A DNA stretch of 64,000 bases from contig NZ_MUNQ01000007.1 in the NCBI RefSeq assembly GCF_002001165.1, forward strand, positions 124,001 through 188,000, in the 5' to 3' direction. Below the pieces are notes generated by a model that saw only the letters and a list, made by a program, of their open reading frames with translations, was not told the origin of the DNA and did not search any database. A program made the position numbers and the translations under genes. The DNA comes from Rhodanobacter sp. C05 (lineage in GTDB: Bacteria; Pseudomonadota; Gammaproteobacteria; Xanthomonadales; Rhodanobacteraceae). Shown piece by piece: positions 2,972-9,335 of this stretch. How positions within the stretch are numbered: the first letter of the stretch is position 1; each line of letters opens with the position of its first letter.

Positions 2972-3000
2972 TTGACTTATTTGTTAAATGGCCGTATAGA
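2972..3000 (+). promoter_or_regulatory. Sigma70-type promoter of cysB
   Basis: TTGACT (2972-2977), a 17-bp spacer and TATAGA (2995-3000): near-consensus hexamers at ideal spacing, reading towards cysB. The implied start point near 3007 leaves a leader of about 160 nt. The -10 hexamer overlaps the Met-box-like palindrome at 2998-3005. Confidence 0.7.
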
Positions 3001-3005
3001 CGTCT
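2998..3005. promoter_or_regulatory. Met-box-like operator (AGACGTCT) on the cysB promoter
   Basis: The 8-mer AGACGTCT is identical to the enterobacterial MetJ operator half-site consensus and is embedded in a 10-bp palindrome, TAGACGTCTA (2997-3006). The adjoining upstream 8-mer (2990-2997) matches at 5 of 8 positions, as expected for a weak second box in a tandem operator. It covers the end of the -10 element, so a bound protein would block polymerase. The binding protein is inferred; no metJ gene is in this window. Confidence 0.5.
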
Positions 3006-3166
3006 AACAATGAAAAGCACAACCAATCATCAAGCAAGCATCCACAACGTCCTTGGCATCGTTGCCTCCGCCGTGCCATGCACGATGCCGGCCAGTTCCA
3101 TGCGATGTATCTGTACTTCGCTCGCGCCTCAATCCATCGACCACGACCGCCTACGGACCCATCGTC

Positions 3167-4159
3167 ATGACACTTACCCAGTTGCGCTATCTCATCGCCA
3201 TCGCCGACTCCGGCCTCAACATCACGCTTGCCGCCGAGCGCGTGCATGCCACCCAGCCCGGGCTGAGCAAGCAGCTAAGACAGCTTGAGGACGAGCTCGG
3301 CTTCCAGCTGTTTGTGCGCAAAGGCAAGAGCCTCGACGCAGTAACCCCAGCCGGCGCCCAGGTGCTGGAACGCGCACGCACGATCCTCGCCGAGGCCGGC
3401 AATATCCGTTCGATCGCCGCAAACCTGCGCAACGAGGCGCATGGCGAGCTGCGCATCGCCACCACCCATACTCAGGCACGTTTTGCCCTGCCAACCGCGA
3501 TCGGCGCGCTCAATGCCGACTATCCGCAGGTCAGCGTGCACCTGCAGCCGGTACGTGATGCCGAAGTGCTGGCGCAGCTGGAGGCCGGCCGGGTCGATCT
3601 GGCCGTGGTCAGCAGCACCGGCGCACCGCCAGCGAACGGCATTGCGCTGCCGGCTTATCACTGGCAGCGGGTGATCGTCGTGCCGAGAGGCCATCCGCTG
3701 GCTACGCACAAGCAGCCGGTATCGCTGGAACAATTGGCGCAACTGCCGCTGATCAGCTACGACTCCTCGCAAAAAGCGGAGTCATCGCTGCGCCGCGCCT
3801 TCGATGCCGTCGATCTGTCACCGCAGATCGCGATGACCGCCAGTGACGCCGACCTGATCAAGACCTATGTACGTGCCGGGCTGGGCGTCGGTGTGCTGGC
3901 CGAGATGGCCATGCTGCCCACGGACACCGACCTGCATGTGTTGCCGGCCGATCACCTGTTCCCGCCTTGCACGACCTGGATCGTGCTGCGCCGTGAACGC
4001 GTGTTGCGTGCCTATGTGCTGGAGTTCATCAGCCTGTTCGCGCCACACCTGCAGCGCCGCGAAGTGGCGCGGGCGCTGGCCGCCGATGCGGCAGGCGACT
4101 GGCCGGCCGTGCCGCACTGGCGGGAACGCTCACGGGCAACGCTGCCGGACGCCGCCTGA
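3167..4159 (+). CDS. cysB: CysB-type LysR-family transcriptional regulator of cysteine biosynthesis
   Basis: LysR regulator of 330 residues. The N-terminal winged helix reads MTLTQLRYLIAIADSG with ATQPGLSKQLRQLEDELG as the recognition helix region, followed by a linker and the periplasmic-binding-like effector domain (about 90-300). In E. coli the CysB effector is N-acetylserine or O-acetylserine, and CysB activates cysJIH, cysK and others. The ATG at 3167 is chosen because the family starts MxLxQLRY; an in-frame start at 3053 would add 38 low-complexity residues. It is flanked by cysG/cysK and cysHIJ, which fits a local regulator. It is convergent with cysH, only 30 bp apart. Confidence 0.88.
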   Translation: MTLTQLRYLIAIADSGLNITLAAERVHATQPGLSKQLRQLEDELGFQLFVRKGKSLDAVTPAGAQVLERARTILAEAGNIRSIAANLRNEAHGELRIATTHTQARFALPTAIGALNADYPQVSVHLQPVRDAEVLAQLEAGRVDLAVVSSTGAPPANGIALPAYHWQRVIVVPRGHPLATHKQPVSLEQLAQLPLISYDSSQKAESSLRRAFDAVDLSPQIAMTASDADLIKTYVRAGLGVGVLAEMAMLPTDTDLHVLPADHLFPPCTTWIVLRRERVLRAYVLEFISLFAPHLQRREVARALAADAAGDWPAVPHWRERSRATLPDAA

Positions 4160-4179: not shown

Positions 4180-4202
4180 CGGCCCGGGGTCAACCCGGGC
4201 CG
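4180..4202. terminator. GC-rich hairpin at the cysB/cysH convergent junction
   Basis: Perfect 9-bp stem (4180-4188 with 4194-4202, core CGGCCCGGG) with a 5-nt loop. It overlaps the cysH stop codon and lies 20 bp after cysB. There is no T-run, so it may be a weak terminator or an mRNA 3'-end stabiliser for both genes. Confidence 0.5.
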
Positions 4203-4912
4203 TGCAACCCGCATTCACGCTTCAACCCGAAGAAGCGGGTGTCTTCAGCCTCCATGCCAGGCTCCCAGCGACGAGTGGTATGGGTGTCGCCGATCGAGAC
4301 ATAGCCCTGATCCCATAGCGGGTGATAAGGCAAACCGTGGCGTTGCAGATACATGCCCACGTCGCGGTCGCTCCAGTCGGCGATCGGATGGAATTTCCAG
4401 CGGTCACGATTCCACTCGACAAACGCGATGTCCTGTCGGCTCCTTGACTGGCTGCGCCGCAGACCGGCAAACCAGCTCTGCACGCCCAGCTCGGTCAAGG
4501 CACGCTGCATCGGCTCCACCTTGCGGATATTGTTGTAACGGTCGATGCCGTCCACACCCTGCTCCCACAGTCGCCCGTAGCGTGCCTCGGCCCAGGCGCG
4601 GCCGATCGCCGGGCGGTAGACCTTGAGATTCAGTTCGAGGCGCTCGGCCAGCGTATCGACGAATTGATAGGTTTCGGCAAACAAGTAACCCGTGTCGATC
4701 AGGATCACCGGGATATCCGGCTGCTGACGCGTCAGCAGATGCAGCGAGACTGCAGCCTGCGCACCGAAGCTCGACGACAGCGCGTGCCTGCCGGGCGTGT
4801 GTTGCAACGCCCACGCCACACGCTGCTCGGCTGTCTGTCCGGCCAGCCAGTCATTCAACCTGGCCAGCGCACGTGGATCGCGCGGATTGCGTGGCAACTC
4901 GATCGCGCTCAT
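4190..4912 (-). CDS. cysH: Phosphoadenosine phosphosulfate (PAPS) reductase
   Basis: Reduces PAPS to sulfite with thioredoxin as electron donor. The 240-residue protein shows the PP-loop-like [15 protein letters not shown], the LIDTGYLF segment, KVEP and the C-terminal redox motif ECGLH with the catalytic cysteine (C234). That cysteine is the only one in the protein: the CC...CxxC cysteines that bind the 4Fe-4S cluster of APS reductases are absent. This is therefore the PAPS-specific, E. coli-like form, and an APS kinase (cysC) should exist elsewhere. The ATG overlaps the cysI stop (ATGA), so cysJ-cysI-cysH form a tight operon. Confidence 0.94.
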
Positions 4913-6612
4913 GCGTTGACCTTGAGCGGAATCAACCGCGGCTGACTCAGTATCCCCACACGTAGCAGGAAATCACCGAAGCGCTCCTCCGTGTCGCGTT
5001 CACCGGCATAACGGGCAAACAGCTGGTCGAGCACTTCGAGCAAGACCGCTTCATCGACATTTTCCCGGTACAGCTGATTCAGGCGCTGCCCTCGGAAGTC
5101 CGCGCCAAGGCGTAGGTCGTAACGACCCGGAGCGCGTCCCACCAGGGCGATCTCGCCAAGGTACGGGCGCGAGCAGCCATTCGGGCAACCGGACAGGCGC
5201 AGCAGGATCGGCGCGTCGATCAGCCCATGACGATCGAGCAGCACTTCAAGCCTGGGCAACAGCTGCGGCAGATAGCGCTCGCTTTCGGCCATCGCCAGCC
5301 CGCAGGTGGGCAACGCCACGCAGGCGATCGCGTGCTGCCGGATGGCGCTGTGCTTCCGGTAGCCGTCCATGCCGTGACGGGCGACCAGCGCGTCGATGGC
5401 AGCACGATCCGCAGCCGCCACGCTGGCGATGATCAGGTTCTGGTTGCAGGTCAGGCGGATGTCGCCTTTGTGTATCGCAGCCAGCTCGCGCATACCGCTG
5501 AGCCAGGTGTGCGCTTCGGTATCGAGCAGACGGCCGGACTCGACCTGCAGAGTCAGATGCCAGCGACCGGCATGGCCTTCGATCCAGCCGTAACGATCGC
5601 CGTTGTGGTCGAAGCGAAACGCACGCTCCGGCTGCAGCGCAAAGCCGAGGCGATGTTCCAGCTCGGCCTTGAATGCGGCAAGCCCATGCCGGTCGATGGT
5701 GTATTTCAGGCGCGCATGTTTGCGCTCATTGCGATCTCCCCAGTCGCGCTGCACCGCAATCACGGTTTCGGCGAGCGCCAGCAGTTGCTCCGGCAGCACG
5801 AAGCCGATCACGTCGGCCAGCCGCGGATAGGTCGACGGGTCGCCATGGCTGGCGCCCATGCCACCGCCGATCGCTGCATTGAAGCCGGACAGCCGACCAT
5901 CCTCGATGATCGCGATCAGACCCAGGTCCTGGGCAAACACGTCGATATCGTTGAGCGGCGGAATCGCCAGTCCGATCTTGAACTTGCGTGGCAGGTAGGT
6001 CGGTCCGTACAGCGGCTCGACCTCTTCTTCGCCGACCAGCTTTTCGCCGTCGAGCCAGAGCTCGTGATAGGCGCGGGTCTTCGGCTTGAGATGCTCGGAC
6101 AGGCGCACCGCCCACGCATACGCTTGCTCATGCGCCTGCGATTCGACCGGGTTGGTATTGCACACCACGTTGCGGTTGACGTCGCCGCACGCGGCGATGG
6201 TGCTGGCCATGGCCGCATCGATCGCCGCGATGGTCGGCTTAAGGTTGCGCTTGATGATGCCGTGCCACTGGAAGGTCTGTCGCGTGGTGATGCGCAGACC
6301 ACTGCTGGCGTAGTCCCCGGCGATCTTGTCGAACGCCAGCCATTGCGCCGTCGTCATCACTCCGCCAGGCAGGCGCGCGCGCACCATGAAAGCATACGCC
6401 GGCTCCAGCTTCTGGCGGCGACGCTCGTCCCGGATGTCGCGATCATCCTGCAGGTAGCTGCCGTGGAACTTGAGCAGCTTGTTGTCATCCTCGCTGATCG
6501 CACCGGTGACCGTGTCAGCCAGCCCTTCGGCGATGCTGCCGCGCAGGTAGCGGCTTTCTTGCTTGATTGTCTCGAGATGGGAAGGCATGGACTGACTCGT
6601 ATCAATAGACAT
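4909..6612 (-). CDS. cysI: Sulfite reductase hemoprotein beta-component
   Basis: Six-electron reduction of sulfite to sulfide, using siroheme and a 4Fe-4S cluster fed by CysJ. The start at 6612 ([12 protein letters not shown]) gives 567 residues, as in E. coli. A much longer in-frame extension inside cysJ is rejected because homology begins at [10 protein letters not shown]. Substrate-site basic residues are in RLPGGVMTT and RTTRQTFQ-like segments (here [12 protein letters not shown]) and in [10 protein letters not shown]. The cluster/siroheme cysteines are CVALPTC and CPNGC. The first bases overlap the end of cysJ by 11 bp, and the end overlaps cysH by 4 bp, suggesting translational coupling. 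Confidence 0.95.
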
Positions 6613-8437
6613 CGCGGGCGTAACGGCCCTGTTGCAGCAATTCGGCAAGCCAGGTTCTGGCATCTTCGACGGACAGGCCGCCGTGCGTGGCGACCACGTC
6701 CTGAAGCGCCTCATGCACATCCTTCGCCATGTGCGCAGAATCCCCGCAGACATAAAGATGGGCACCCTCGCGCAGCCATGCGTACAACTCGCGGCCGTTC
6801 TCGCGTATGCGCTGCTGGACATAGGTCTTCTGGACGGAATCCCGGGAGAACGCCAGATCAAGGCGATGCAATGCACCGCTACGCAGGGCTTCCTGCCATT
6901 CCACCTGGTAGAGGAAATCCTGTGAGAAATGACGGTTTCCGAAGATCAGCCAGTTGCGGCCACTGGCTGTCGTCGCCTGGCGCTCCTGCACGAAGGCGCG
7001 GAAGGGCGCAATGCCGGTACCAGGACCGATCATGATTACGTCGCGACTGCCATCGGCGGGCAGCCGGAAGCGCTCGTTCGACTCGACGAATACCGGTACC
7101 CGCGTGTCATCTCCAGCACCCGCGAGGAAGGCCGAAGCAGCTCCATAGTGAGCACTTCCGTACGCGGCGTACTCCACCACACCGACCGTCAGGTGGACTT
7201 CGTCGTGACCAACCAGCCCGGCGCTGGACGCGATCGAGTACAGCCGTGGCGTCAGTGGACGCAGTGTTGCCACCAACTGTGCTGCATCCCAGCTCGCCGG
7301 AAATTCGCGCAGCAGGTCGATCGGCTGATGGCTTTCCAGCAAAGTCGCGAAGGCGGCCTGCTGCCCCGGCTCAAGCACACGCTGCAGGTCAGCATGCCTG
7401 GTCACTGCGGCCTGAGCCGTCACCAGCGGCCGGGTCAACCGGGTAAGTTCACGCTCATGGCTGAGCCAGCGCGCCAGCGGCAGGCGGCGGCCCTCATGCT
7501 CGATCTCGCGCGAACCGTCGAGCCTCAACGCCGACAGCCACTGCTCGACGAGCACGGGTGGATTCTGCGGCCACACACCGATGGCATCACCGGGCTCGTA
7601 ACGCAAGCCGGAACCTTCCAGCGAGAGCTCGATATGGCGCACGTCGCGAACACTGTCGCGCGACACGATGCGCTGGTTTTCCAGCACGGTGGCCGGAAAC
7701 GGTTTGTCGCGGGAATGCAGCAACGGCGCACTGACCGCATGCAACGGGCCGGCATGGCGCACCGAGGCGACCGGCACGCTCAAAACCTCTCGTGCCGTCT
7801 CCAGCACACCAGCTGACCATTCGGCAGCGGTCGAATCGAAATCCACGTCCGCCTCACCAAGCGCAGCGAAGCGGCTGGCGCCGAGCTCGATCAGGCGCGC
7901 ATCCAGCTCGCGGCTGACTGCACAGAACTTCGGATAGCTCGAATCACCCAGCCCCAGCACGGCAAACTTCAGCTGTGGCAACCTGGGCGCACGCTTGCCG
8001 GAAATGAACTCGATGAAGCCAATCGCATCATCCGGCGGATCGCCATCGCCCTGGCTGCTGATCACCACGACCAGATGGCGCTCCTGCACCAGCTCCCTCG
8101 ACGGGTAGGCGCCGGCCCGCAACAGGCGCACCGCCAATCCGGCAGCTTCCGCCCTGCCCGCCAACTGCTCAGCCACGCGCCGCGAATTGCCGGTCTGGCT
8201 GCCGTAGACGATGCTCAGGCGTTCGCCTGCCTGAGCGATTGGAGCCATCAGTGGCCCGCCGACCACAGTCAGTCCGGCATGCTCCGTGGATCCCGCCGCC
8301 AGGGCCGCGCTGTATGCCGCGATCCAGTACAGGTCAGCCGCCGCCAGGCCGCTCGTCAGACTGGCCAGTTGGGCAAGCCGTCCTGCATCAAGTGTCGGGG
8401 CTGGCATCGACGGTTTCAGCGCAGCGTTCACGTGCAT
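6602..8437 (-). CDS. cysJ: Sulfite reductase [NADPH] flavoprotein alpha-component
   Basis: Passes electrons from NADPH via FAD and FMN to CysI. The 611 residues are organised as a flavodoxin domain (about 70-215, [16 protein letters not shown]), a ferredoxin-reductase FAD domain (PRLYSIAS) and an NADPH domain ([24 protein letters not shown]), ending in the conserved RYARDVY. It is the first gene of cysJIH. The ATG at 8437 touches its Shine-Dalgarno AAGGA. An in-frame GTG two codons in (8431) is spaced 6 nt from AAGGA and could be the real start. A tandem Met-box-like array begins 8 bp upstream. Confidence 0.94.
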
Positions 8438-8444
8438 TCCTTTT

Positions 8445-8476
8445 GGACGTCTTTACGTCTCGATGTCCATATTACG
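8445..8476. promoter_or_regulatory. Tandem Met-box-like array and cysJ promoter region
   Basis: Three contiguous 8-mers, GGACGTCT (8445-8452, 7/8 to AGACGTCT), TTACGTCT (8453-8460, 6/8) and CGATGTCC (8461-8468, 5/8), are spaced exactly 8 bp apart, which is the register of MetJ operators. A minus-strand -10-like TAATAT lies at 8469-8474, putting the array over the expected cysJ start point. The region is shared with the divergent exporter gene. The regulator is inferred. Confidence 0.5.
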
Positions 8477-8510
8477 TATCCATGAAAATCACCGGAAAGC
8501 ATATGTTGGC

Positions 8511-9335
8511 ATGTCGTTATGCCCGGCACTCATTTCTATGCACTGCGTTGCAGGGCTGATACTCTTCCGGGACGCCCTGAATGACCCGACAGACTTGATC
8601 GAACTGCTTACCTTCATCGCCGTCGGCGCTTTCGCCCAGCTGATCGACGGCGCGCTCGGCATGGCTTATGGCGTGACCTCGGCGGGGCTGCTGATGGGGC
8701 TTGGCATGCCGCCGGTCGCCGCCAGCGCCAGCGTCCATTACGCCGAGACGTTCACCTGCGGCGCCTCGGGTATCAGCCATCTGATGGCCGGCAATGTGCG
8801 GCGATCGCTTTTTCTTGCGCTGGTGATACCAGGCGTACTGGGTTCCCTGCTCGGCGTGCTGGTCGCCGTCAATGTGCCGCCACAATGGATGCGGATCGCA
8901 CTGACACCGTATCTGCTGGGCATGGGTCTGTTTCTGCTGTTTCGCCGCAGCCACCGGCCGGGGGAACGCACCGACGTGCCACGTGGCACCTCACCCATGG
9001 CACTCGCTGCCGGGTTTGTCGACGCGATCGGCGGCGGCGGCTGGAGCGCGCTGACCGTCACTATCCTGATTGCACGTGGCCTGCCGCCACGCGTGGTGAT
9101 CGGCAGCGTGCACCTGGCCAAATGCGTGGTGAGCATCGCTGCCAGCATGAGCTTCCTGCTTACCATCGGCACCAGTCATGGCATGGCGGTGATCGGCCTG
9201 ATCATTGGCGGCGTGCTCGCCGCACCGTTCGGCGCGCTGTTCATCCGCCGCATTCCGGCGCGGGCCGCAACCTTGCTGGCCGGCCTCGCCGTGCTCGCCC
9301 TGGGCATCAACAACGCCGTTCGCATGTTCGGCTGA
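8511..9335 (+). CDS. TSUP (TauE/SafE) family membrane exporter, probable sulfite exporter
   Basis: Integral membrane protein of the 4-toluene-sulfonate uptake permease (TSUP) family, whose TauE/SafE members move sulfite, sulfoacetate or related anions. The repeat signature is visible twice: GAFAQLIDGALGMAYG near the N-terminus and AAGFVDAIGGGGWSALT in the middle, with about 7-8 hydrophobic helices. The start is uncertain. The ATG at 8511 with ggaaag upstream gives 274 residues; ATG 8538 or TTG 8595 are alternatives, the last nearest the usual family start. It is divergent from cysJIH across a 73-bp spacer, so export of excess sulfite from the same pathway is a reasonable inference. The substrate is not proven by sequence. 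Confidence 0.8.
   Translation: MSLCPALISMHCVAGLILFRDALNDPTDLIELLTFIAVGAFAQLIDGALGMAYGVTSAGLLMGLGMPPVAASASVHYAETFTCGASGISHLMAGNVRRSLFLALVIPGVLGSLLGVLVAVNVPPQWMRIALTPYLLGMGLFLLFRRSHRPGERTDVPRGTSPMALAAGFVDAIGGGGWSALTVTILIARGLPPRVVIGSVHLAKCVVSIAASMSFLLTIGTSHGMAVIGLIIGGVLAAPFGALFIRRIPARAATLLAGLAVLALGINNAVRMFG

Follow-up and report, generated by a model that had tools for sequence, protein, structure and literature searches.

Two adjacent 8-bp Met boxes lie directly before the ribosome site of cysJ, at positions 8445-8460 of the window (the whole stretch of 64,000 bases analysed here), and very probably form an operator through which MetJ bound to S-adenosylmethionine (SAM) would repress cysJIH, both directly and by way of cysB. 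Sulfate reduction and methionine synthesis would probably both be turned down when S-adenosylmethionine is plentiful. We infer binding, its SAM dependence, repression, and the activation of cysJIH by CysB from sequence. An earlier examination of the letters alone (hereafter the sequence-only reading) had already pointed to MetJ, and this gains support from the presence of an ortholog in the host, from boxes that pass a published rule, from their recurrence in relatives, and from their absence in the tested relatives that lack MetJ.

Paired Met boxes at cysJ and cysB

On the minus strand, the window carries cysK (cysteine synthase, 348-1289), cysG (siroheme synthase, 1359-2846, divergent from cysB), cysH (PAPS reductase, 4190-4912), cysI (sulfite reductase hemoprotein, 4909-6684, start approximate) and cysJ (sulfite reductase flavoprotein, 6602-8437), each matching its model above cut-off (TIGR01139, PRK10637, TIGR02057, TIGR02041 and TIGR01931, respectively). 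The ATG of cysJ is at 8437, and relatives suggest a GTG start at 8431. The plus strand holds a cysB-type LysR regulator (3167-4159), whose best NCBIfam models, PRK12680 (LysR) and PRK12681 (CysB), both score below their cut-offs, and a TSUP-like open frame divergent from cysJ (8286-9335, start approximate), which has a weak NCBIfam match to PRK10621 and takes its name from the sequence-only reading.

Between cysJ and this divergent frame, GGACGTCT (8445-8452), TTACGTCT (8453-8460) and CGATGTCC (8461-8468) follow one another without a gap and in one register, agreeing with AGACGTCT at 7, 6 and 5 of 8 positions, exactly as the sequence-only reading had described them. With the published Met-box matrix, which according to the available portions of its source was derived from gammaproteobacterial orders other than the host's (PMC3228920), they score 10.35, 6.48 and 2.23 bits. 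The rule given in those portions calls for at least two adjacent 8-bp boxes, each reaching at least a quarter of the consensus score, with a total of at least the consensus score (PMC3228920). Boxes 1 and 2 (8445-8460) pass it with 16.83 bits against a cut-off of 12.58, while the third box stays under the single-box cut-off of 3.145; by this rule the cysJ array therefore consists of two boxes and a weak third, so that the proposed three-box array holds for its first two members and fails at the last. Membership of 8445-8460 among MetJ operators does not require the third box.

The array is flanked on one side by a -10-like TAATAT on the cysJ strand (8469-8474, minus; ATATTA on the forward strand), noticed in the sequence-only reading as well, which coincides with a conserved T/A-rich stretch of relatives and is a putative promoter element. 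On the other side, immediately next to the array, stands a ribosome-site-like AAAGGA read from the sequence (8438-8443, minus), which in relatives is likewise kept after the last box. Some 25-55 bp beyond the array, a further element on the same strand (8494-8521, minus) resembles a stretch upstream of cysJ in relatives, and may be a candidate CysB site.

A second probable operator lies between cysG and cysB, where GGCCGTAT (2990-2997) adjoins, in one register, the perfect AGACGTCT (2998-3005) known from the sequence-only reading. Together these two boxes (2990-3005) score 17.21 bits and pass the same rule (PMC3228920), which bears out the claim that two sulfur promoters of the window share one motif. 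The operator covers the -10 of a cysB promoter-like TTGACT-N17-TATAGA (2972-3000, plus), and in 23 of 29 anchored loci of relatives (L078, which has no anchor, was left out) a TTGAC-N17/18-TATAGA promoter is overlapped in the same way, with its -10 within the operator. Placement over the -10 at cysB and before the ribosome site at cysJ would suit a repressor. In the cysB leader (3006-3166), a stretch around GCGATGTAYC is kept in many relatives, with an ATG just 3′ of the operator; a leader peptide upstream of cysB was considered and dropped, as by eye its frame differs among relatives.

Could the boxes be accidental, and relatives alike merely by descent? Single boxes give some ground for thinking so: in the window we counted 13 matches with at most one mismatch where 19.3 were expected, and a further perfect AGACGTCT (298-305) is a lone box within an open frame. 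Nor did the 16-mer AGACGTCTAGACGTCT, allowing at most three mismatches, show bulk enrichment genome-wide, with 12 places against 21 for a reversed control. Judged by eye on open frames, eight of these loose places fall within long frames and four outside likely genes, at metX, cysB, cysJ and L013; the one at cysJ precedes both likely gene starts. The published rule tells against accident, since exactly two sites in the 64,000 bases pass it and both are the cys promoters described above, as compared with two passing sites (15.4 and 13.7 bits, one of them within a called frame) in 400 kb of background from the same genome (twenty stretches). First-order Markov sequences gave a mean of 0.5 and a maximum of 2 passing sites per 64 kb in 30 trials. 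A rule-passing site of the 400-kb sample, L225:1739-1754, is situated 24 bp upstream of a called gene's start. The motif is above chance as paired arrays, not as single boxes.

Recurrence in relatives and co-occurrence with MetJ

Within the sample of 59 genomes from the host family, cysJ was found in 45 and cysB in 47, and conservation was assessed on the best 30 loci of each, the window's own included. The published rule is passed at 18 of the 30 cysJ loci (between 100 bp upstream and 20 bp downstream of the estimated start), spread over 13 of the 16 genera represented, and at 27 of the 30 cysB loci (240 bp upstream), counts that are not independent given the shared ancestry of the relatives. 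Shuffle tests on the best 16-mer gave p<0.01 in 23 of the 30 cysJ upstream stretches. The region upstream of metJ itself satisfies the rule in 23 of the 28 loci parsed (L020, L034 and L040 uncounted). Among the 12 cysJ loci that fail are all three same-genus relatives (L050, L053, L055) and every locus fetched from genera g4, g6 and g25, which leaves chance or mere ancestry with some room. Against it, box columns are more conserved than their flanks, although anchoring inflates the last box; arrays are missing in relatives that lack MetJ; and the motif is common to metJ, metE and metX. We consider accident or mere ancestry very unlikely.

The same loci bear on the divergent gene. The cysJ array occupies the divergent region common to both genes and is enclosed by the open TSUP frame, which a simple gene caller also draws around the 8445 site and which stays open far upstream; the portion matched in relatives starts well downstream. 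The array might thus serve the TSUP-like exporter and not cysJ, and the sequence-only reading had it front both genes. When we searched for TSUP with its downstream part only as query and flanks of 1500 bases, 12 of the 30 cysJ loci had it as a neighbour, and the array passed in 7 of these 12 as compared with 11 of the 18 loci without TSUP. These rates, together with the position of the array next to the cysJ ribosome site, led us to reject TSUP as the target, and we judge that it is exceedingly improbable as such.

MetJ was present in all 59 genomes of the host-family sample and in 28 of 101 genomes of an order-wide sample (15 of the host family, 7 of family f9 and 6 of family f12). From these 101 we picked 24 control genomes of other families, 18 lacking MetJ and 6 carrying it; of the 24, 15 yielded a cysJ locus and 15 a cysB locus (16 places). 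No locus of the MetJ-less controls passes the rule (0 of 10 for cysJ; 0 of 12 for cysB, in 11 genomes), as opposed to two of five cysJ and two of four cysB loci in MetJ-bearing genomes outside the host family. The difference between 0/22 and 4/9 gives a one-sided Fisher p of 0.004 on the assumption of independent loci, an independence that is not strict. Five of the nine MetJ-bearing loci fail; at two of them (L140, L239) the total score is reached with one box too weak, and G086, a MetJ-bearing genome with one pass and one fail, has an in-frame TGA within its MetJ match.

Co-occurrence also bears on whether another regulator occupies the array, for instance CysB, or SamR, an ArsR-type regulator of Xanthomonadales described in the accessible part of a 2014 survey with a 24-bp palindrome ATC-N10-GAT (PMC4239095). 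On the cysJ strand the array contains ATC-N10-GAC, a single base off the SamR pattern. At 2990-3005 there is no ATC-N10-GAT, the palindrome test fails at both sites, and arrays track MetJ across families and stand before metJ itself; as for CysB, MetJ-less genomes with a CysB-type protein have no arrays at cysJ or cysB. A regulator other than MetJ therefore appears very unlikely to us.

MetJ and its probable operators elsewhere in the genome

The host genome has one metJ gene (G000:C2:48164-48418), which matches PF01340 with 121.9 bits (cut-off 25) and PRK05264 with 124.9 bits (cut-off 110). Its product aligns with E. coli MetJ structures over residues 6-90, the KIT strand falling on the KIT of the E. 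coli protein, whose lysine and threonine we take to be the DNA-contacting residues of MetJ. The nearest named records are from Dyella choica, a Proteobacteria MAG and a Rhodanobacter MAG.

A family matrix combines 61 arrays (20 of 29 cysJ, 24 of 29 cysB and 17 metJ loci), each the best 16-mer of its locus and matching at 12 or more of the 16 positions; picking best 16-mers inflates the agreement among these arrays, and the tests with the published matrix are independent of them. The sequence-only model R1, trained on 55 arrays from other genomes (of 59 distinct 24-mers), scored 150 of 708 first-look candidates in the host genome. Within that portion, the metJ, cysB, metE and metX promoters took rows 1-4 of 31, and the cysJ site of the window came at row 28 with an E of 1.6; rows below the fourth are mostly within open frames. 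A scan without enrichment at sulfur-gene promoters would have told against the sequence-only reading, and at the top of the list the outcome was different; the lack of bulk enrichment and the low row of cysJ count against the proposed operators. Neither metE nor metX was part of the R1 training, and each is found again in one relative, again with its type of riboswitch (L183 and L197, respectively). By the published matrix, the four-box array of metX scores 32.0 bits, metE 15.0 and metJ 12.75.

At metX (L002:1350-1534), the four-box MetJ array stands upstream of a SAM-I riboswitch, giving two successive controls that are both linked to SAM, and at metE (L151) the array is paired with a cobalamin riboswitch. 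These arrangements matter for the idea that the conserved GGACGTCC of the cysJ leader acts as an RNA hairpin or translation element. It immediately precedes the ribosome site, and on our reading an RNA copy of such repeated palindromic boxes is able to base-pair. At cysB, however, the array overlaps a -10, and at metE and metX it precedes riboswitches that are separate from it, so that a common RNA role does not fit and we regard this explanation as highly improbable.

Applied to eight relatives (E 0.01), R1 returned 46 rows at 30 loci in seven of the eight genomes, most of which, beyond those named here, are unexplained. For the nine loci at cysJ, cysB and metJ the argument is circular, R1 having been trained on sites of this kind; those free of this circularity are metE (L183) and metX (L197), together with an aspartate-kinase gene (L191) and two TonB-receptor genes (L178, L179). 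The aspartate-kinase gene is preceded by an array at L191:1504-1519, and the TonB-receptor genes by arrays at L178:1504-1519 and L179:1496-1519; the best model for these receptors is a vitamin B12 receptor, matched far below cut-off and in the N-terminal part only. In three genomes, arrays (L174:1488-1515, L177:1504-1519, L200:1503-1518) lie between a lipoprotein-like gene and its convergent neighbour, by a terminator-like hairpin, an unusual place for an operator, from which perhaps an overlooked small RNA is transcribed.

In the host family, MetJ does not end in the usual short C-terminus but in a Lys/Ala-rich tail 44-313 residues long. Of 31 loci fetched, 28 are complete and parsed (L034 and L040 are unparsed, and L020 is cut by a contig end); the tail is present in all 28 and absent from MetJ in all 26 parsed loci outside the family; a tailed example from outside the window is L001:1243-1824 (minus strand). 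Histone-H1-like models match it below their cut-offs only, and among the open-access matches listed we found no report of a Lys/Ala tail or of MetJ with histone H1. It is possible, if doubtful, that a SAM-gated MetJ with a histone-H1-like tail serves as master repressor of sulfate assimilation (cysB, cysJIH) and methionine synthesis, and that with this tail MetJ on its operator would hold or bridge the DNA on either side, making it a small chromatin-type silencer.

Proposed control and known systems

The control that we propose would run as follows. SAM-loaded MetJ dimers would occupy adjacent 8-bp boxes covering the cysJ start region and block transcription of cysJIH, while on the second operator, situated over the -10 of cysB, they would lower the supply of CysB, which activates the cys genes. 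Acting on cysJIH directly and through cysB, MetJ would form a coherent feed-forward loop. Sulfate reduction would in this way be tied to SAM supply as metE, metX and metJ are, and this costly reduction would stop when methionine and SAM are plentiful.

The available portions of a 2011 survey indicate that, in the species covered, cysteine-metabolism genes appear never to carry Met boxes, and that enteric bacteria keep cysteine control by CysB apart from methionine control by MetJ (PMC3228920). Here, the methionine repressor is seemingly wired to the cysteine-pathway activator and to sulfate reduction, an instance of a rewired regulon for which families that lack MetJ provide natural controls, and one that also exposes the tailed MetJ. 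Nothing on MetJ sites at either cysB or cysJ came up among the open-access literature matches listed. In its accessible sections, the 2014 survey lists MetJ in six groups and in none of four Xanthomonadales genomes, and the main text there makes no mention of cysJ or cysB (PMC4239095). Excerpts of other studies describe metJ as missing in Xanthomonas campestris 8004 (PMC6230763), and the MetR/MetJ system as seemingly conserved in Xanthomonas (PMC7270179). For strain R12, from work on a Rhodanobacter community, a putative MetJ is mentioned, and the excerpts give no list of its sites (PMC12146267).

Set beside these systems, the SamR regulon resembles ours in governing methionine genes within the same bacterial order and differs in its regulator, which the consulted part of the survey gives as ArsR-type with an ATC-N10-GAT palindrome (PMC4239095). 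The met operon of Xanthomonas, as portrayed in the same excerpts (PMC6230763, PMC7270179), resembles metX here in its SAM-I riboswitch, and it is the MetJ operator upstream of the riboswitch that sets the host apart. Closest is the known MetJ regulon, with which the host has in common a MetJ ortholog, rule-passing paired 8-bp boxes, and sites at metJ, metE and metX. It differs from that regulon in its additional sites at cysB and cysJ (compare the portions cited of PMC3228920), in the SAM-I and cobalamin riboswitches added at metX and metE, and in the Lys/Ala-rich tail of its MetJ. Judged by sequence, the putative extension of the MetJ regulon to cysB and cysJIH is a variant of the known regulon and no new kind of system.
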